A DNA stretch of 8,366 nt from a bacterium (GCA_040757115.1 JBFLYA010000163.1:1-8366), one strand, 5' to 3'. Counted from the stretch's first letter, positions 419 through 8,363 are shown. The notes: generated by a model from the sequence alone, not told the origin. Numbers and translations are program-made.

Positions 419-2248
419 ATGTCAGTGAAAAAAGTTTTTCCCAGCCCTTTTGAAATTGAAACACCAGAGGGTGCAAACGGATGGAAGGAAATGTATCCTT
501 ACTATCTCTTGTTTAGTGAAGAGCGTAAAGAACTTGAAGAAGAGAGATTTTGGTTTTGCGATACGATGCATTGGACAACCCCACTCTATCCCTTTGACAT
601 TTTTACCGCAGAAAGTGCTATATCTGCTCTGGGTCGTTATAACACCCGTGTTTGGCTTATCCCACCCGCACTGGGCATAGATATAAGGTTACTTAATGGC
701 TTCATATATCTAAGTCCTTTAACGGTTGATGACCCCGAGGAGATAACAGAAAGGCTAAAGGATTTTAGTCAGCGGGCAGGGTTTTATTATCAAAATTGGG
801 ATAGCCTTTATGCTAAATGGAAGGAAAAGGTAACCAGAGAAATAGAAGGATTAAAATCAATCGCCATTCCTGATTTACCCGAAAAAGAAGACCTCCAGAA
901 GATAACCGATGCGGTTGGCATTTCCACCGGATTTTCCCTTCTTTCTGCCTACAATCAACTCATAGAAAGTATGACTAAAATCTGGGAATACCACTTTGAG
1001 TTCTTAAATTTAGGGTATGCCGCTTTTCTTGATTTTTCTTGCTTTATGAAAGGTATTTTCCCTGATATTTCAGACCAGACGATTACTAAAATGGTGGCGG
1101 GTATAGATGTTATTTTATTTCGACCAGATAATGAATTGAGAAGATTATCTAAATTAGCAGTAGAACTCAATCTATCCGAGATATTTCTTGAAGGACAAAT
1201 ACCTGAGGCAATCATCGAAAGATTGCAAAGGACTGACTCAGGTAAACAATGGTTAAACAGTTTGGAAGAGATTAAAGACCCCTGGTTCTATTTCAACTCT
1301 GGCACAGGGTTCTATCATACACCCCGAAGTTGGATAGATGATTTATCTATTCCCTTTTCAGCCATTGCTGGATATATCAAAAAATTACAGGCTGGAGAAA
1401 ATATAGAGAGGAAAACAGAAAAAATAGTAGAAGAAGGAGAGAAACTAAAAGAGGGGTATTTTTCGTTATTAAGAAGTGATGAGGATAAAAAGGTTTTCCT
1501 GGAAAAATTCTCTCTGGCTAAAACCGTATTTAGTTATGTTGAGGAGCATAATTTTTATGTTGAGCACTGGCACCATACTATCTTCTGGAATAAGATGCGT
1601 GAGGTAGGGAAGATTTTAGCAAAAAGTGGCTTCTTTGCGCAAGAAGAGGATATATTTTATTTAAACAGATATGAAATCTCACAAGCCCTCTATGACCTAT
1701 ATTCATCCTGGGGGATTGGTTCTCTTCCCAAGGGACCTCAATATTGGCCAAAAATAATCTTAAAGAGGAAAGAAATAATCAAGGCACTTGAGAAATGGCA
1801 GCCTGTTCCTGCCTTAGGACCACCACCGGAGAAGATTACTGAACCATTTACCATTATGCTCTGGGGAATTGTTTCAGAAAAGATAGACGCCTGGCTTGAG
1901 GCTATGAGTGGGGAGCAAAAAGAGGGAGCATTGCTGAGAGGGCACCCTGCTTCACCGGGGGTAGTTGAAGGAATTGCCAGAATAGTGCTTTCAACCGATG
2001 ACCTGCCTGATGTTCAGGAAGACGAGATAATGGTCTGCCCAATTACTACACCATCCTGGACGCCTGTGTTTGCCAGGATAAAAGGTGTAGTGGCTAATGT
2101 TGGTGGGATGATGAGCCATGCCGCCATTGTCTGCAGGGAATACGGCTTGCCTGCGGTGGTAGGCACAGGCTTTGGAACTCGATTGATTAAAACAGGCCAA
2201 TATTTAAGAGTTGATGGAACTAAAGGGATAGTGGAGATTGTAAAATAA
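419..2248 (+). CDS. PEP-utilising-enzyme phosphotransfer subunit, phenylphosphate synthase alpha-like
   Basis: Starting at ATG 419, which has AGGAGG at 402-407, the protein is 609 aa (about 70 kDa). Residues about 1-500 form the long linker/substrate region typical of phenylphosphate synthase subunit 1, with segments such as FEFLNLGYAAFLDF, HTPRSW and FYVEHWHHTIFWNKMREV. Residues about 507-609 are a PEP-utiliser mobile (swivelling) domain. It includes ASPGVVEG and the catalytic signature GGMMSHAAIVCREYGLPAV, where His567 should carry the phosphohistidine; from memory, the Thauera enzyme uses a histidine at nearly the same position. The protein ends right after this domain, so the PEP/pyruvate-binding TIM barrel of PEP synthase and PPDK is absent. 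The ATP-grasp half is encoded two genes downstream. The predicted role is cytosolic transfer of ATP-derived phosphate through His567 to a small acceptor. Phenol is the precedent, but no phenylphosphate carboxylase gene is visible, so the substrate stays open. It could also be a paralogue with another acceptor. Confidence 0.85.
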   Translation: MSVKKVFPSPFEIETPEGANGWKEMYPYYLLFSEERKELEEERFWFCDTMHWTTPLYPFDIFTAESAISALGRYNTRVWLIPPALGIDIRLLNGFIYLSPLTVDDPEEITERLKDFSQRAGFYYQNWDSLYAKWKEKVTREIEGLKSIAIPDLPEKEDLQKITDAVGISTGFSLLSAYNQLIESMTKIWEYHFEFLNLGYAAFLDFSCFMKGIFPDISDQTITKMVAGIDVILFRPDNELRRLSKLAVELNLSEIFLEGQIPEAIIERLQRTDSGKQWLNSLEEIKDPWFYFNSGTGFYHTPRSWIDDLSIPFSAIAGYIKKLQAGENIERKTEKIVEEGEKLKEGYFSLLRSDEDKKVFLEKFSLAKTVFSYVEEHNFYVEHWHHTIFWNKMREVGKILAKSGFFAQEEDIFYLNRYEISQALYDLYSSWGIGSLPKGPQYWPKIILKRKEIIKALEKWQPVPALGPPPEKITEPFTIMLWGIVSEKIDAWLEAMSGEQKEGALLRGHPASPGVVEGIARIVLSTDDLPDVQEDEIMVCPITTPSWTPVFARIKGVVANVGGMMSHAAIVCREYGLPAVVGTGFGTRLIKTGQYLRVDGTKGIVEIVK

Positions 2249-2258
2249 AGAAATACAT

Positions 2259-2276
2259 AACCACAAATTTGTGGTT
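2259..2276. terminator. 18-bp perfect palindrome, possible weak terminator or repeat remnant
   Basis: The sequence aaccacaaatttgtggtt is a perfect palindrome beginning 10 bases after the stop codon of the large subunit, followed by a T-rich tract (tatattttattt). As RNA it could form a 6-7 bp hairpin with a tiny loop, which is weak for intrinsic termination because it has few GC pairs. Each half also resembles the ACCACAAAG repeat seen near 6792, so it may instead be a remnant of that repeat family. Confidence 0.35.
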
Positions 2277-2347
2277 GATATATTTTATTTGCTTTAATTC
2301 TGCATTATTTGCTAAAACAGTTAAGAGAAAAACTACCAGATTTTAAA

Positions 2348-2354
2348 AGGAGGG
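2348..2354 (+). promoter_or_regulatory. Ribosome binding site of the coiled-coil gene
   Basis: AGGAGGG lies 7 bases before ATG 2362. This is a strong independent site, so the small gene is a genuine translated unit and not just a spacer between the two kinase subunit genes. Confidence 0.8.
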
Positions 2355-2361
2355 AAAAACT

Positions 2362-2787
2362 ATGCCAGTAATTGCTGTTCCCAGAGTTTTGAGGGAAAAA
2401 TTAGGGGAAGATGGGGTGGATTCCTTAGTTGAACTCTTCAACAAATCAGAAGAAAGAATAAAGGAAGATGTTATTACCCTATCAGCAGAGAAATTCGCAA
2501 GAAGGCTTTCTGAGGAAATCAGTGGAGTAAGGTCAGATATTGCAATCATGGAAGGGAAACTTGAGGCAAGAATTTCTGGAGTAAGGGCTGAAATGAAAGA
2601 GGAAGTTACCTCTCTTAGGGCTGAAATGAAAGAGGAAGTTACCTCTCTTAGGGCTGAAATGAAAGAGGAAACTTCAAAAATCAGAGTTGAAATGGCACAG
2701 TTCAAATCAGAAATTATCAAATGGATGTTTCTATTCTGGATAGGGCAGATTGCTTGTATGGCTGGAATTGTGAAGTGGTTGAGGTAA
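2362..2787 (+). CDS. Small coiled-coil protein with C-terminal membrane anchor (LA_3696/DUF1640-like), function unknown
   Basis: The protein has 141 residues behind a strong ribosome binding site at 2348-2354. The N-terminus (VPRVLREKLGEDGVDSLVELFN, about residues 6-27) is a conserved-looking head. Residues about 28-118 are a long charged coiled coil containing 11-residue repeats (RAEMKEEVTSL), a hendecad pattern. Residues about 120-138 (WMFLFWIGQIACMAGIVKW) form a single hydrophobic helix, giving a tail-anchored topology with most of the protein in the cytosol. The plan matches what I know of LA_3696/DUF1640-like proteins, small coiled coils with a terminal membrane helix and no assigned biochemical role. 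It sits between the two kinase subunit genes, 113 bases after one and 33 before the other, where the third phenylphosphate synthase subunit (a CBS-domain protein) is not found. It might tether the complex to the membrane, or it may be an unrelated insertion. The family assignment is from memory. Confidence 0.75.
   Translation: MPVIAVPRVLREKLGEDGVDSLVELFNKSEERIKEDVITLSAEKFARRLSEEISGVRSDIAIMEGKLEARISGVRAEMKEEVTSLRAEMKEEVTSLRAEMKEETSKIRVEMAQFKSEIIKWMFLFWIGQIACMAGIVKWLR
2584..2670 (+). repeat. 33-bp tandem repeat encoding 11-residue coiled-coil units
   Basis: Two identical 33-bp units at 2584-2616 and 2617-2649 are followed by 21 identical bases of a third at 2650-2670. Each unit encodes RAEMKEEVTSL. 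Exact identity points to recent slippage or unequal exchange. The length (11 codons) keeps a hendecad coiled-coil register. Confidence 0.95.
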
Positions 2788-2820
2788 AGATAAGAGACAA
2801 AAATTTCAGGAAAGAACTCT

Positions 2821-3651
2821 ATGTACATTAAATGGGATAACGAAATGGTTACATCTGAGGAGGTGGGCAATAAAGCCGCTAATTTATTTGAATTGAAAAG
2901 GATAAGTATATCTGTCCCACTGGGTTTTGTGGTTACCAAAAAGGCATTTGTGGACTTTGTGGCTACACATCAGCTCTATGACTTAGGGCAAAATATTGGT
3001 AATCTTTTGGTAGGACTTGAGATGCCAGATAAAATGGCTAATGAAATAAGCCATGCCTGCCAACTCCTTTCATCAAGGGTTAAAAAAGAAAGCCGGTTTG
3101 CGGTCAGGTCTTCCTCAAGTAGGGAGGATTTACCACATACAAGCTTTGCCGGAATGTATGAGACATTCCTTAATGTAAAAGAGACAGATGTTTTAAAAAG
3201 CATTAAGGGATGCTGGCAGAGCACCTTTAATCCCCATTTGTTAAGCTATTTACAGGTATTGGGAAAAGGATACCAGGATATACAGGAGATAGCCATGGGG
3301 GTAATTGTTCAGGAGATGATAAACTCAACATTTGCGGGCGTTCTGATGACCATAGACCCAATCAGCGGCGACCCCTCGAAGATGGTTATTGAATATGCAA
3401 AGGAAGATTCTGTTACATCAGGCGAGGGAACACCAAATCGTCTGATGATTGACAAAATTACCAACCAGATAGATAAAATAAATGGAGAGATTTTAGAAGA
3501 AAGATATAGATATCAACTTGCTAATCTGGCTAAAAGGATAGAGCAACACTTTGGCTCTTATCAGGATATAGAATGGGCAATTGATAAGGAAAATGGAGAG
3601 CTCATCATCTTACAGGCAAGACCAGAAAGTGTATGGAATAGAAGAAATTAG
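2821..3651 (+). CDS. ATP-grasp (PPDK/PEP synthase N-terminal) subunit, phenylphosphate synthase beta-like
   Basis: The 276-residue protein starts at ATG 2821, with AGGAAAG at 2808-2814 six bases upstream. It is a self-standing PEP synthase/PPDK N-terminal ATP-binding domain. Visible elements are GNKAANLFEL with Lys18, VPLGFVVT (32-39), the nucleotide-binding segment FAVRSSSSREDLPHTSFAGMY (93-113) with Arg96, the VQEMINSTFAGVLMT stretch, and the C-terminal metal/ATP motif IEWAID...ILQARPE with Glu251, Gln265 and Arg267. All the expected ATP-site residues seem present. It should phosphorylate His567 of the large subunit with ATP, releasing AMP and phosphate as in PEP synthase chemistry. Separate ATP-grasp and His-domain polypeptides are the hallmark of phenylphosphate synthase; from memory its subunit 2 is somewhat longer. 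The protein ends directly after the ATP-grasp motif, with no barrel and no His domain. Confidence 0.85.
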   Translation: MYIKWDNEMVTSEEVGNKAANLFELKRISISVPLGFVVTKKAFVDFVATHQLYDLGQNIGNLLVGLEMPDKMANEISHACQLLSSRVKKESRFAVRSSSSREDLPHTSFAGMYETFLNVKETDVLKSIKGCWQSTFNPHLLSYLQVLGKGYQDIQEIAMGVIVQEMINSTFAGVLMTIDPISGDPSKMVIEYAKEDSVTSGEGTPNRLMIDKITNQIDKINGEILEERYRYQLANLAKRIEQHFGSYQDIEWAIDKENGELIILQARPESVWNRRN

Positions 3652-3852
3652 TGCCTTGTCACTACTCAATTACTGGGTAGAGTTTCATAAGCGTTCAGCA
3701 TTTAGCCATCTTTTAGCTAAAAAAAGCGTAACCGTTCAGGGTGTAATGAAGGAAAAATGGAAAAACTGGGGAAAAAAGATATTTTCCTCTCTGTTCCTCT
3801 GCGTCTCTGCGGTAAATTACCACCTGAACGGTTACAAAAAAGCGAACTGATT
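3652..3852. other. Intergenic region before the kinase gene, mostly a small inverted-repeat element
   Basis: There is no convincing gene. From 3652 to about 3719 the sequence holds tttagc...gctaaa and a tttagctaaa palindrome, which could fold after the upstream stop. The rest is a MITE-like element (3729-3835). An open frame spanning 3581-3850 overlaps the real upstream gene and reads through the repeat, so it is not accepted. I see no clear promoter for the kinase gene. Confidence 0.5.
3729..3835. mobile_element. MITE-like 107-bp element with terminal inverted repeats and possible 9-bp target duplication
   Basis: Arms gtaaccgttcagg (3728-3740) and cctgaacggttac (3823-3835) are perfect 13-bp inverted repeats, and the match resumes further inward (gtaat/attac) after a short mismatch. 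The sequence aaaaaagcg occurs immediately outside both ends (3720-3728 and 3836-3844), consistent with a 9-bp target duplication, although its A-tract lowers the significance. Its last G doubles as the first base of the left arm. The interior has no coding sequence, but it carries an A-rich/T-rich inverted segment and a gcgtctctgcgg motif of the window-wide CRCARAG repeat family. The right end lies 9 bases from the ribosome binding site of the kinase gene. Confidence 0.6.
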
Positions 3853-3866
3853 AGGAGTGAAACATT

Positions 3867-5894
3867 ATGAATGAAATTTTTGATGTTATCTTGGAAAGGG
3901 CAAAAAAATATTGTCGGGATGAGTTTGATGTAATTCATCTCGAAAAAGCCTTAGAGATGACAAAAAGGTTAATGGCTATAGAAGGCGGCGATGAAAGGAT
4001 TATCATCCCGGCAATTCTTCTTCACGATACAGGCTGGAGTACCTTTTCCTTTGAGGAAGAAGGGATGATTAGATTGCCTCCCTCCCTTTCAGAAAATTTG
4101 AATGGAAGAGGAATTGCCTTTTCAAATGCCATCTTACTCCATAAGCATGAGATAGAAAGTAGCCTTATCGCTCAAAATATCCTTTCAGAACTTAAATTTC
4201 CAACAGACGAAAAGGAAAAGATTGTTGAGATTATCACCGGACATGATAGTAGAAAACAACCAATCTCAAAAGAGGACGAGGTGGTTAAAGATGGAGACAG
4301 ACTCTCAAGATACACACCAGAATTGTTTTCTGCTCTATGCCAGAAATTTAATCTTGGTGAAGAGGAATTTTTTAAATACCTTAATTTTAATATAGAAAAA
4401 TGGTTTTACTCTGATACAGCCAAAACAATAGCCAGGAAATATCTATTAAGAAAAAGGCTAAAGATTTCTGAGGCTGAGTGGCTAACTGGGATAATGGGTA
4501 GATTTTTTAATCTTTTCCTTAGATTAGAAGGTGAAGCTATTAAAATAACCAAAAAACATGGGGAAAAGATAATGATAAGCCTTACCAGAGAAATAGTCTA
4601 TAATCTCAAAAAAGCAATAGAAATCTATCTTTCATCTCTGCCTTCTGCAACCCTTAAAGGGCTTCAGGAAGATAAAAGGTTTTGTTCCCTTGTTTCTCAA
4701 AAGATAGGGGAATTTGGCTACATTGGCATTATAGATAGAGAGAGTGGCAGGATTATCTTTCATCCTGATAAAGGGTTGATTAACTTACCCAGAAAAGAAC
4801 TTAAAGAGAAAAAGAGACCTGCTCAATATCTCTATGGTTTTTGGAATGTCTATAACCGGGCTTTAAATGGTGAAGAATTCTACGCGCCATATCAGGGGCT
4901 AAATGACAAAGGAGAAATTGTAGATAAAATTTGGTATGTTGTCCCCATGGATAGCGGGGAATTAAAATGGGCTATAGTTGGAGCGGCTGTTTATGATGAT
5001 TTTCATAAGCCAATAGACCTTTTAAGTCAAGATATTATTTACTCCCTTGGTGAGGTTTCCAATCAACTCTATTCCTTACTCAATCTGGTTGATGAACAGA
5101 ACAAGAAATTAGAAAGACTTAATGAAGGGCTTAAACAAGAAATAATTGAACGGCAGCAGGCGGAGGAAAAACTCATTGCCGCAGAGAAATTAGCCGCAGC
5201 AAGCCAGATTGCGGCTGAGTCTGCCCATGAGATAAAAAATCCTTTAACGGTGATTAAGGGTGGAGTCTATTACCTGTCTCAGATTCTAGCCAAAGACGAA
5301 ATTATCAAAAAAACACTTGGCCAGATTGATAAAGCTGTAGATAGGGCAACATCTTACATAAACAGCCTTCTATCCTTCTCAAGACCACCTATACTTAAGG
5401 TTAGCTCTGTAGATATAAATAATCTACTCCAGGAGACATTAAAAGACTTAGAGAATGAGATGAAGGCAGAGGTGAAAATAAAAGAGAATTTAACTAAATC
5501 TCTCCCTCCCCTAAAAGCTGACCCAGAACAACTAAAAGCAGTTTTCTTTAATCTCATCAAGAATGCCATTGAATCTATGGGAGAAAGAGAAGAAAAAAGA
5601 TTGGAGATTAACACTCAGGAGGTTACCCATAAAGAAGGTAGGTTTGTCTTGATAAGGATTAAAGATAATGGTGTGGGTATTCGTAGCAAAGAGGTAGAAA
5701 AGATATTTAACCCCTTTTATACCACTAAGGGAAAAGGCACAGGTTTGGGTTTGGCTATCTGCCAGCGCATCATCGAAGCACATCAGGGAAAGATTGGAGT
5801 AGAAAGTAAAGAAGGAAAAGGAGCAACATTTACGATTAAATTGCCCCAAAAAACGGATATGTCCACGACGGAGAGTGGAGACAAACAGGGATGA
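3867..5894 (+). CDS. Soluble HD domain-Cache-histidine kinase fusion
   Basis: The 675-residue protein starts at ATG 3867, with AGGAGTG at 3853-3859. Residues about 1-200 are an HD-superfamily metal phosphohydrolase domain: His24, His53-Asp54 (LLHDTGW), His92/His94, His126-Asp127 and Asp142/Asp144 (KDGDRLSRY), all plausible metal ligands. Residues about 235-385 look like a Cache-type ligand-binding domain (GYIGIIDRESGRIIFHPDKG, then YVVPMDSGELKWAIVGAAVYDDF). Residues about 393-450 form a coiled-coil linker. The kinase core is complete: H-box SAHEIKNPLTVI with His454, N-box NLIKNA (Asn562, Asn566), G1 DNGVG (600-604) and G2 GKGTGLGLAI (622-631). No membrane span or signal peptide is seen, so the Cache domain, usually extracytoplasmic, would sit in the cytosol. 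The partner is the double receiver 57 bases downstream. The HD domain might hydrolyse a nucleotide or act as a sensor; its substrate is unknown. Confidence 0.88.
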   Translation: MNEIFDVILERAKKYCRDEFDVIHLEKALEMTKRLMAIEGGDERIIIPAILLHDTGWSTFSFEEEGMIRLPPSLSENLNGRGIAFSNAILLHKHEIESSLIAQNILSELKFPTDEKEKIVEIITGHDSRKQPISKEDEVVKDGDRLSRYTPELFSALCQKFNLGEEEFFKYLNFNIEKWFYSDTAKTIARKYLLRKRLKISEAEWLTGIMGRFFNLFLRLEGEAIKITKKHGEKIMISLTREIVYNLKKAIEIYLSSLPSATLKGLQEDKRFCSLVSQKIGEFGYIGIIDRESGRIIFHPDKGLINLPRKELKEKKRPAQYLYGFWNVYNRALNGEEFYAPYQGLNDKGEIVDKIWYVVPMDSGELKWAIVGAAVYDDFHKPIDLLSQDIIYSLGEVSNQLYSLLNLVDEQNKKLERLNEGLKQEIIERQQAEEKLIAAEKLAAASQIAAESAHEIKNPLTVIKGGVYYLSQILAKDEIIKKTLGQIDKAVDRATSYINSLLSFSRPPILKVSSVDINNLLQETLKDLENEMKAEVKIKENLTKSLPPLKADPEQLKAVFFNLIKNAIESMGEREEKRLEINTQEVTHKEGRFVLIRIKDNGVGIRSKEVEKIFNPFYTTKGKGTGLGLAICQRIIEAHQGKIGVESKEGKGATFTIKLPQKTDMSTTESGDKQG

Positions 5895-5939
5895 AAATAA
5901 ATTATTTTGTCAGAGAGCTCAGAAAAGTCAGAGTTTTTC

Positions 5940-5944
5940 AGGAG
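5940..5944 (+). promoter_or_regulatory. Ribosome binding site fixing the double-receiver start
   Basis: AGGAG lies 7 bases before ATG 5952. The only longer alternative is a TTG at 5907 without a comparable site, and the 15 residues it would add come before the canonical first strand of the receiver. The ATG at 5952 is therefore preferred. Confidence 0.75.
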
Positions 5945-5951
5945 TAAGCCA

Positions 5952-6668
5952 ATGGCTAAAATTTTAATTGTTGATGATGAACCAGATTTAGCAGATGTGT
6001 TGAAACACATCCTTAAGATTAAATGTTATGAAGTAAAGCCTGTTCTGGATGGTTATCAGGCTATTGAAGAGGTAAAAAAGACCCATTATGACCTTATCCT
6101 GATGGATATCAGGTTACCTGGTTTAAATGGGGTGGAGACATTTCTTCAAATTAAAGAGATTGATAAAAACACAACGGTAATTATGATGACGGGTTTTGCA
6201 GTAGAGGATTTAATAGAGACCGCTTTGGAAAGAGGGGCTTATGCCTGCCTTCATAAACCATTTGACTTAGACAAGGTCATAACCTTGATTGCCAAAGCCA
6301 TCAGTGAGAATCGCCCAACTATTTTAATTGTCGATGATGATGAAGGGATAAGAAAGAATTTATGTCGTATTCTTGAAGAAAAGGGGTATCGGATTTATTT
6401 GGCTAAAGATGGGCAAGAAGCTTTACTAATGCTTAAAACGGGATTATATCACTGTATTATCCTTGATCTCAAACTTCCGAAAGTAGATGGGATTGTTGTT
6501 TTGAAAGAGGCTAAACAAGTAAATCCTAATGTGGTAGTCATTGTCATTACAGGCTATGATTTGCCAGATTTACTTAACGAAGCCAGGCATTTATCCGCTT
6601 ATGCCTGTCTGAAAAAGCCAATTGATATGACTGAATTATTGAGGTTGCTGAAAGAGACGATAAAATGA
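5952..6668 (+). CDS. Double-receiver response regulator without output domain
   Basis: From ATG 5952 the protein has 238 residues and consists of two CheY-like receiver domains. Receiver 1 (about 1-118) has the acidic pair Asp8-Asp9, phospho-acceptor Asp52 (LILMDIRLPG), Thr80 and Lys102-Pro103. Receiver 2 (about 122-238) has Asp128-Asp129, Asp172 (CIILDLKLP), Thr200 and Lys222-Pro223. Both are intact, so both could be phosphorylated. There is no DNA-binding, GGDEF, HPt or other output domain. The gene lies 57 bases after the HD-Cache kinase in the same direction, very likely in one operon with it. It probably receives phosphate from His454 and passes it on or acts by protein-protein contact. 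With two receivers it could serve as a phosphate sink or as the middle of a relay. A longer TTG start at 5907 is possible but less likely. Confidence 0.88.
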   Translation: MAKILIVDDEPDLADVLKHILKIKCYEVKPVLDGYQAIEEVKKTHYDLILMDIRLPGLNGVETFLQIKEIDKNTTVIMMTGFAVEDLIETALERGAYACLHKPFDLDKVITLIAKAISENRPTILIVDDDEGIRKNLCRILEEKGYRIYLAKDGQEALLMLKTGLYHCIILDLKLPKVDGIVVLKEAKQVNPNVVVIVITGYDLPDLLNEARHLSAYACLKKPIDMTELLRLLKETIK

Positions 6669-6695: not shown

Positions 6696-6996
6696 CTGGA
6701 GTTTCGTGAATTTTCTATGATTCCTTTCTCCTTTAATCTTTGCGTTCTTTGCGGTTGATTTCTTTACGTTCTTTGCGGTTAAAAAAAGATAAACCACAAA
6801 GGGCACAAAGTAGTAACGCAAAGGACACAAAGGGAAGAAAATAGGTGAAGCATTTTTTATCAACTCAACTTCAAAGGATAAGTTGCAAAAAAAAATCATC
6901 AGGCTTTTGAGCCTAATTTTGCCATCTTTGAGCAAAATAAACAGATTGATAAGGTTCAGATAGCCTCAATGGCTCCTTAAATTAACGAAACTCCAG
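6696..6996. mobile_element. MITE-like or decayed IS element, 301 bp, 18-bp terminal inverted repeats
   Basis: The left end ctggagtttcgtgaattt (6696-6713) and the right end aaattaacgaaactccag (6979-6996) are inverted repeats matching at 17 of 18 positions, including a perfect 12-bp tip. No obvious target duplication flanks them. The inside is non-coding and strongly structured: direct repeats at 6738-6756 and 6762-6780 face inverted copies at 6792-6810 and 6815-6832. Smaller hairpins follow, including aggc/gcct around 6901-6914 and attttgc/gcaaaat around 6916-6940. Size and structure fit a non-autonomous element mobilised by a transposase encoded elsewhere. Confidence 0.65.
6738..6832. repeat. 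Nested direct and inverted CRCARAG-type repeats
   Basis: The sequence ctttgcgttctttgcggtt (6738-6756) is repeated at 6762-6780 with one mismatch. The complementary-sense copies aaccacaaagggcacaaag (6792-6810) and aacgcaaaggacacaaag (6815-6832) follow across an A-rich spacer, making a long imperfect hairpin. The shared consensus read on one strand is about CRCARAGRNCRCARAG. A related copy occurs in the 3729-3835 element. Confidence 0.85.
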
Positions 6997-7459: not shown

Positions 7460-7467
7460 ATGTAAAT

Positions 7468-7472
7468 GGAGG
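7468..7472 (+). promoter_or_regulatory. Ribosome binding site fixing the flgB start
   Basis: GGAGG lies 11 bases before ATG 7484. The upstream in-frame ATG at 7466 falls at the predicted transcription start and has no site of its own, so 7484 is preferred. Confidence 0.7.
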
Positions 7473-7483
7473 CAAAAAATATT

Positions 7484-7915
7484 ATGTTTGACCAATCTAC
7501 CCATATGCAAACAGTGAAAATATTAGAGAACTCACTGGATACTGCGACCTTACGGCAAAAGGTGATTGCGGATAATATTGCTAATGTTAATACGCCAGGT
7601 TTTAAGAAAAGTTATGTAAGTTTTGAAGATGAGCTTGCCCTGGCATTGCAGAAAAAGGAAACATCAAATTTTAAAGCAAGGACGACTGACCCTAAACATA
7701 TTCAATTTTATAAACCACCAAAACATCCAACTGCAGTTCGACCACGAATGTTTGTGGAAGATGATACTACTTTTCGTAATGACCTGAATAATGTTGATAT
7801 AAATGCTGAAATGGCTAATTTAGCAAAAAATTCTATTATGTATGAGGCAGTAGTTAATAGAATAAGTGGTATGTTTCAGATGCTTGATATGGTAATAAGA
7901 GGAGGCACAAGATAG
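7484..7915 (+). CDS. flgB: Flagellar basal-body rod protein FlgB
   Basis: From ATG 7484 the protein has 143 residues, a normal FlgB length. The N-terminus MFDQSTHMQTVKILENSLD and the rod-protein signature NIANVNTPGF (residues 31-40) identify it. The C-terminal part (about 110-143, NLAKNSIMYEAVVNRISGMFQMLDMVIRGG) is the helix that packs in the rod coiled coil. FlgB is a proximal rod protein at the junction with the MS ring, exported by the flagellar type III apparatus without a cleaved signal. The next gene is flgC after 4 bases, the usual order, with fliE normally following. Transcription probably comes from the sigma-28-like site at 7432-7459. An upstream ATG at 7466 would add six residues but lies at the predicted transcription start, so it is disfavoured. 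Confidence 0.95.
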   Translation: MFDQSTHMQTVKILENSLDTATLRQKVIADNIANVNTPGFKKSYVSFEDELALALQKKETSNFKARTTDPKHIQFYKPPKHPTAVRPRMFVEDDTTFRNDLNNVDINAEMANLAKNSIMYEAVVNRISGMFQMLDMVIRGGTR

Positions 7916-7919
7916 TATC

Positions 7920-8363
7920 ATGATGAATCTTTTTCAAACAATTAATACATCTGGCTCAGGACTTACCGCAGAACAATTACGAATGGATGTAATTGCTAAT
8001 AATATTGCGAATGTGAATACAACTCGAACTCCACAAGGAGGCCCTTATCGTCGACAAAGAGTACTATTTACTCCTCGTGAACCGCAGGTATTTTTTAATA
8101 TACCATTTGTTAAATCACAGGTTATCTACAATGGTAAAGGGGTGCGTGTCGTAGGTATTGAAGAAGACCCTTCTCCATTTAAAATAGAATATCGACCTGA
8201 ACATCCAGATGCAGATAAAGATGGTTATGTTCGGTTGCCAAATGTAAATGTAGTTTTGGAGATGACGGATATGATTACCGCGACCAGGGCTTATGAGGCA
8301 AATGTAGCCGCAATGCGGTCTGCAAAAGAAATGATGATTAGGGCACTGGATATTAGTAGATAA
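7920..8363 (+). CDS. flgC: Flagellar basal-body rod protein FlgC
   Basis: The 147-residue protein begins MMNLFQTINTSGSGLTAEQ and carries the rod signature NNIANVNTT (27-35), followed by TPQGGPYRRQRVLF, which is typical of FlgC. The C-terminal domain (about 110-147, PNVNVVLEMTDMITATRAYEANVAAM) is the conserved flagellar basal-body C-terminal region. It forms the proximal rod together with FlgB, FlgF and FliE. The gene follows flgB by 4 bases. The GAGGAGG inside the end of flgB (7899-7905) is 14 bases from ATG 7920, rather far, so translation may be coupled to flgB termination. ATG 7923 is an alternative start one codon later. The stop is three bases from the window end, and the operon probably continues beyond it. 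Confidence 0.95.
   Translation: MMNLFQTINTSGSGLTAEQLRMDVIANNIANVNTTRTPQGGPYRRQRVLFTPREPQVFFNIPFVKSQVIYNGKGVRVVGIEEDPSPFKIEYRPEHPDADKDGYVRLPNVNVVLEMTDMITATRAYEANVAAMRSAKEMMIRALDISR

Follow-up and report, generated by a model that had tools for sequence, protein, structure and literature searches.

A two-component dikinase of the PpsAB/CreHI/HpeHI subfamily linked to a histidine kinase with a CreD-like HD domain: a possible write/erase sensing module

Genes at the locus

We analysed a bacterial DNA stretch of 8,366 nucleotides (GCA_040757115.1, JBFLYA010000163.1:1-8366; hereafter the window), where two genes lying between positions 419 and 3,651 encode the large (alpha) and small (beta) subunits of a predicted small-molecule dikinase and are followed by genes for a histidine kinase bearing an HD domain and for a double-receiver regulator. 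We give an even chance to the reading that dikinase and phosphohydrolase have been rewired as a sensing module, with a write/erase cycle of phosphorylation, rather than serving catabolism. The window makes up an entire contig (C163) of a 4.3-Mb genome (462 contigs, 99.9% complete), and the gene flanks were therefore read in relatives instead. All the genes listed, from alpha to flgC, lie on the + strand.

419..2248, + strand: dikinase large (alpha) subunit, 609 aa (NF006153, PEP-utilizers domain, AlphaFold model; AGGAGG ribosome-binding site ahead of the start ATG at 419)
1925..2245, + strand: swivel (phosphohistidine) domain of alpha, aa 503-609 (Pfam, motif, structure alignment, column comparison)
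2362..2787, + strand: coiled-coil protein with a C-terminal hydrophobic segment, CCDC90/DUF1640-like (Pfam CCDC90-like, 34.7 bits)
2821..3651, + strand: dikinase small (beta) subunit, 276 aa, ATP-grasp (PPDK_N, 202 bits; alignment)
3728..3835, strand unassigned: short element resembling a miniature inverted-repeat transposable element (MITE), whose inverted arms are 20 nt long, lying between the beta and sensor-kinase genes (repeat search)
3867..5894, + strand: soluble sensor histidine kinase, 675 aa, HD/Cache-like/HisKA/HATPase (Pfam HD, HisKA and HATPase_c; sub-threshold Cache)
3867..4466, + strand: CreD-like HD domain of the sensor kinase (plasmid matches are Rhodococcus HD proteins of cre-type records)
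5907..6668, + strand: response regulator with two receiver domains and without an output domain (Pfam Response_reg, two stretches)
7466-8363, + strand: flgB and flgC (gene calls of the window)

For the response regulator, ATG 5952, with its AGGAG, is a likelier start than 5907. The original prediction covered the dikinase genes; it mentioned neither the coiled-coil gene that separates alpha from beta nor the relevance of the genes after 3651.

The two subunits

Alpha matches the NCBIfam family NF006153 (PRK08296.1-5, 'hypothetical protein') at 864.8 bits, the cut-off being 578. It consists of a substrate-binding domain (about aa 1-500) followed by the C-terminal swivel domain (the last 107 residues), in which Pfam recognises the PEP-utilizers mobile domain (aa 533-603). 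The catalytic His567 (codon 2117-2119) is the last residue of the phosphohistidine motif, GGMMSH. The family motif T/SxxGGxxxH with Met two before the His is present, the Met being Met565; at the motif's first position the window's genus has Ala559, and the remaining phylum members have T/S. Beta is a PPDK_N/ATP-grasp protein, and in the alignment it keeps 6/6 of the residues that we take, from general knowledge of PPDK, to form the PPDK-type ATP site (K18, R96, D249, E251, Q265 and R267). A loss of ATP-site residues in this short beta, the outcome that was named beforehand as one that would speak against the assignment, is ruled out by the alignment, and the loop that is missing is common to the phylum. 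The profile scans with Pfam and NCBIfam detect the phosphoenolpyruvate (PEP)/pyruvate barrel in neither subunit. The description that had been given from the window alone, with the phosphohistidine domain (His567) and the ATP-grasp domain on separate proteins and the barrel on neither, is thus borne out by the Pfam matches, the motif and the scans.

The AlphaFold model of alpha, built from 33 relatives, has a mean predicted local distance difference test score (pLDDT) of 90.7. The best structural match of this predicted fold is rifampin phosphotransferase (RPH) 5fbt, with Z 24.6 over 492 residues and 21% identity, while the structures of PPDK and enzyme I match the model essentially in the swivel domain alone. 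RPH is the closest solved fold to the whole of alpha, but it is a single chain with a fused ATP-grasp domain and an antibiotic substrate. The published description of HpeH is of the same RPH-like match (PMC12167813).

The likeness of the swivel domain to enzyme I of the phosphotransferase system (PTS), together with the two receiver domains that adjoin, could suggest that the phosphate passes to a protein receiver domain in the style of a phosphorelay or of PTS enzyme I, without any small molecule. We consider this very improbable, because in alpha the substrate-binding domain (about 500 residues) is complete and most of the family-invariant residues are kept, and the histidine kinase already provides a phosphodonor.

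Place in the dikinase subfamily

Judged by sequence, alpha and beta are a two-component small-molecule dikinase of the PpsAB/CreHI/HpeHI subfamily, the wider published group that has the split, barrel-less design (PMC12167813). In this subfamily the catalytic His attacks the beta-phosphate of ATP, the gamma-phosphate is lost and transfer to a phenol follows (PMC12167813). Based on family membership, fold and the kept ATP-site residues, this published mechanism would carry over to alpha and beta. In the library that was searched, which is incomplete, only two papers deal with two-component dikinases under these names.

Compared along its full length, alpha shows 46-47% identity to representatives of each of the three types. 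In the maximum-likelihood tree of 61 alphas, with support from the Shimodaira-Hasegawa-like approximate likelihood-ratio test (SH-aLRT) only, the window's phylum forms one fully supported clade that lies inside none of the three; the Azoarcus alpha stands apart from it, beside other UbiD-linked sequences. The tree thus gives no grouping with a family whose substrate is known and different, which had been the other outcome that would speak against the assignment. The closest alpha relatives outside the phylum (53-56% identity) adjoin UbiD genes, most of them with UbiX.

Phenylphosphate synthase PpsAB(C) of Thauera and Aromatoleum, for which the enzyme of Azoarcus KH32C was compared, has the same two-subunit domain split, catalytic His and ATP-site residues, with alpha 46.8% identical over its full length and beta 31%. 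The likeness of the large subunit to phenylphosphate synthase that had been claimed is thus real full-length homology. As to the claim that the design is that of phenylphosphate synthase, both the family and the design were correctly recognised, but the design is common to PpsAB, CreHI and HpeHI, and alpha groups with none of them. In Azoarcus KH32C the phenylphosphate synthase operon is complete, with alpha, beta, CBS, ppcBDAG and UbiX. By contrast, the window set has no CBS subunit and no ppc/UbiD partner, belongs to another clade, has a shorter beta and is linked to an HD-histidine kinase. A genuine phenylphosphate synthase would account for the identity of alpha and for the subunit design; it is rejected on the separate clade, the lack of an adjoining CBS gene and the lack of a phenylphosphate carboxylase in the genome, and we give it next to no credence.

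The second type, CreHI, is the 4-methylbenzyl phosphate synthase of the cre operon of C. glutamicum. The Rhodococcus plasmid operons that were compared (alpha 46% identical) have the order P450-beta-alpha-short-chain dehydrogenase/reductase-ferredoxin-reductase-HD-aldehyde dehydrogenase, which is collinear with creJ-I-H-G-F-E-D-C of C. glutamicum (PMC7764795). Like the window, the cre operon has an HD phosphohydrolase partner (CreD type; 31% identity over 150 aa, with the same metal ligands). In cre, however, the HD protein is free-standing and is accompanied by P450, ferredoxin, reductase and dehydrogenases, whereas in the window it forms part of a histidine kinase, with no oxidative enzymes downstream.

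The third type, the hydroxyphenylethanone dikinase HpeHI of Rhodococcus GD02, for which Rhizobium and Actinomycetospora operons were compared, has the same two-component design, and alpha is about 46% identical to the Rhizobium HpeH homologue. HpeHI is linked to a biotin carboxylase, a carboxyltransferase and a NagD-like phosphatase. The order alpha-beta-biotin carboxyl carrier protein-biotin carboxylase-carboxyltransferase-HAD, often with an acyl-CoA ligase, in Rhizobium and many actinobacteria fits the published Hpe pathway (PMC9618137). Acetone activation, an idea for these biotin-linked relatives that arose from an acetoacetate-CoA ligase-like neighbour, was dropped on account of this match.

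It is noted that alpha keeps 45 of the 47 columns that are invariant among 50 family members outside the phylum. Moreover, 9/9 phylum members have Asn at position 560, seven residues ahead of the catalytic His, where 50/50 outside relatives have Asp. This clade-specific D560N beside the catalytic motif, and the separation of the clade from all three types with a characterised substrate, would be consistent with a non-phenol acceptor (an alcohol, an amine or a lipid-like molecule) used with the same chemistry in another pathway. We regard such an acceptor as improbable, as alpha retains the residues conserved in the family and the gene context of its nearest relatives is of the phenolic type.

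Other subfamily members were seen in further settings. The haloarchaeal plasmids L093 and L127 have alpha-beta pairs near genes for a ring-hydroxylating dioxygenase and a metallophosphoesterase, another uncharacterised neighbourhood, and one genome outside the phylum (G236) has three alpha paralogues (L141-L143), at least one of them in an Hpe-like operon.

The HD sensor kinase and the double-receiver regulator

The sensor kinase is laid out as an HD domain (aa 1 to about 200), a Cache-like middle (about 270-380, with sub-threshold scores), HisKA with H454 and HATPase. The HisKA phosphoacceptor His, the HATPase boxes and the receiver domains are all present in the kinase and the regulator. No strongly hydrophobic 19-residue segment was found in the kinase, which is thus probably cytosolic. 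Its structure model, from 3 sequences, reached a pLDDT of 62 and was set aside.

The HD ligands H24, H53-D54, H94, H126 and D142 are invariant in the sensor kinases and common to the Rhodococcus CreD-type proteins, which were named CreD by their gene order collinear with cre and not by comparison with C. glutamicum CreD. Among 72,556 plasmids, the sole matches of the HD domain are HD proteins from two Rhodococcus records, both of which carry cre-type operons. With an HD profile made from the phylum only, these proteins score 75-110 bits, and the other HD proteins in 386 genomes score at most 53 bits. The HD domain of the sensor kinase looks like a CreD-type phosphohydrolase domain, a prediction from these comparisons. 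Since the matches lie in cre-type operons, where a phosphohydrolase and a kinase of this kind serve one pathway, they support the pairing of dikinase and phosphohydrolase here. The literature search found no paper with an HD domain, a histidine kinase and phenylphosphate together, in a library that is incomplete.

The double-receiver regulator adjoins the sensor kinase in the relative L024 too, and lies directly before alpha in L025. In L024 (14560-14770, genome G008), the regulator's two receiver domains are separated by about 200 bp with stop codons.

Distribution and co-occurrence

Within the phylum, alpha occurs in 10 of the 19 genomes and beta in 8; the HD kinase occurs in the same 8 as beta and in 0 of the other 11. 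The probability of this match by chance is 1.3e-5, uncorrected for kinship. In five within-family pairs (G003/G002, G005/G004, G008/G013, G014/G009 and G010/G015, of families f1 to f5), one member has both beta and the kinase while the other has neither, and the two genes are neighbours in the window's genome (G000), G005, G006, G008 and G014. The two genomes with alpha and without a detected beta are G007, whose alpha lacks about the first 260 residues and is probably a remnant, and G017 (87% complete), where a contig end falls at the place where beta and the kinase would lie.

Outside the phylum, the HD kinase was found in 0 of 367 genomes and alpha in 3; two of these were read, one being UbiD-linked and the other of the biotin-carboxylase type (carboxyltransferase plus HAD). 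A distant alpha-beta pair (L070, 3-5612; 38% identity) has an unrelated GAF-PAS histidine kinase upstream, possibly an independent link between a dikinase and a sensor kinase. That kinase was rejected as a homologue of the sensor kinase, as it is joined to it through HisKA/HATPase only.

Catabolic partners

The original prediction that neither the CBS subunit nor a UbiD-like carboxylase is present in the window holds: there is no match to the Azoarcus CBS subunit and no UbiD gene within it. The sole UbiD of the genome lies on another contig next to UbiX and is 28-33% identical to phenol-type UbiDs. As UbiD occurs in 16 of the 19 genomes of the phylum irrespective of the dikinase, it looks like a housekeeping gene. 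In the window's genome we found no phenylphosphate carboxylase (UbiD-like PpcA/PpcB), no Hpe-type biotin-dependent carboxyltransferase (HpeB) and, by the PF06050 search, no protein of the 2-hydroxyglutaryl-CoA-dehydratase/benzoyl-CoA-reductase type. Note also that no P450, ferredoxin or reductase genes adjoin the dikinase in the window or in the gene order of the relatives. The view that the usual partners are lacking thus extends genome-wide for those tested, but it missed a new conserved partner, the HD-phosphohydrolase/histidine-kinase fusion with its double-receiver regulator.

Discussion

Based on the sensing reading, beta would bind ATP and His567 of alpha would take its beta-phosphate, giving AMP and Pi. 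The swivel domain would then carry the phosphate to a small hydroxylated acceptor, most likely phenolic, bound in alpha. The CreD-like HD domain of the cytosolic histidine kinase would most likely read the resulting aryl phosphate and hydrolyse it, and the kinase would hand the signal to the double-receiver regulator. The sequences show the dikinase family, the intact catalytic, HD and kinase sites and the linkage; we infer the phenolic acceptor, the hydrolysis of its phosphate by the HD domain, and the role and direction of signalling. That three downstream routes are missing, namely the CBS subunit in the window and the aryl-phosphate-type UbiD and Hpe-type carboxyltransferase in the genome, supports sensing. 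A bolder form, which we consider possible though rather unlikely, is that the aryl phosphate is a second messenger made by a dedicated dikinase from an intracellular phenolic, the receptor histidine kinase itself carrying the enzyme that destroys the messenger.

Several points weigh against a sensing cycle. HD domains are widespread, and a substrate cannot be assigned at 30% identity; the double-receiver regulator lies next to the set in 3 lineages only; in G010 the kinase is on a different contig from alpha and beta; the acceptor of the dikinase is one that we infer; and an unrecognised catabolic enzyme could lie elsewhere in the 462-contig assembly.

The last point leads to the alternative that the dikinase is a catabolic or detoxifying phenol-type kinase with unlinked or unrecognised downstream enzymes, the HD-histidine kinase being its local regulating sensor. 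Aromatic operons often have their own sensor. The UbiD genes beside the nearest outside relatives fit this alternative, and every characterised member of the subfamily is catabolic (PMC12167813, PMC9618137). Against it speak the genome, in which no phenol-type UbiD, Hpe-type carboxyltransferase or protein of the dehydratase/reductase type above was found, the regulator, which has no DNA-binding domain, and the sensor, which bears a CreD-like hydrolase domain. We thus rank the sensing cycle first, as the most likely, and the catabolic kinase with its own sensor second, as possible though rather unlikely.

If the sensing reading is true, the tie between this clade and a histidine kinase that bears a phosphohydrolase would be the first sign of a takeover for sensing in a subfamily whose characterised dikinases all start breakdown pathways, and part of the PRK08296 families, still named "hypothetical protein", would gain a role. 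The reading also makes a specific prediction, and a few purified proteins would be enough to test it.

Other features of the window

The coiled-coil gene (2362-2787) has an 83% identical copy in the sister species and was not found in the other relatives' loci compared; it is genus-specific and contains an internal 33-nt repeat. In other phylum members, nucleotidyltransferase-like or other genes are inserted between alpha and beta. A flagellar link through the downstream flgB and flgC was dropped, as the arrangement is not kept in relatives. At 6696-6996 lies a dispersed MITE-like repeat, about 300 bp long, whose terminal inverted repeats measure 18 nt and which has 36 matches in its own genome, about a dozen of them near full length. 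Finally, positions 1-220, where an open reading frame is cut off, hold a tandem repeat of 27 nt (units of 9 residues such as IGEKKVIRS).

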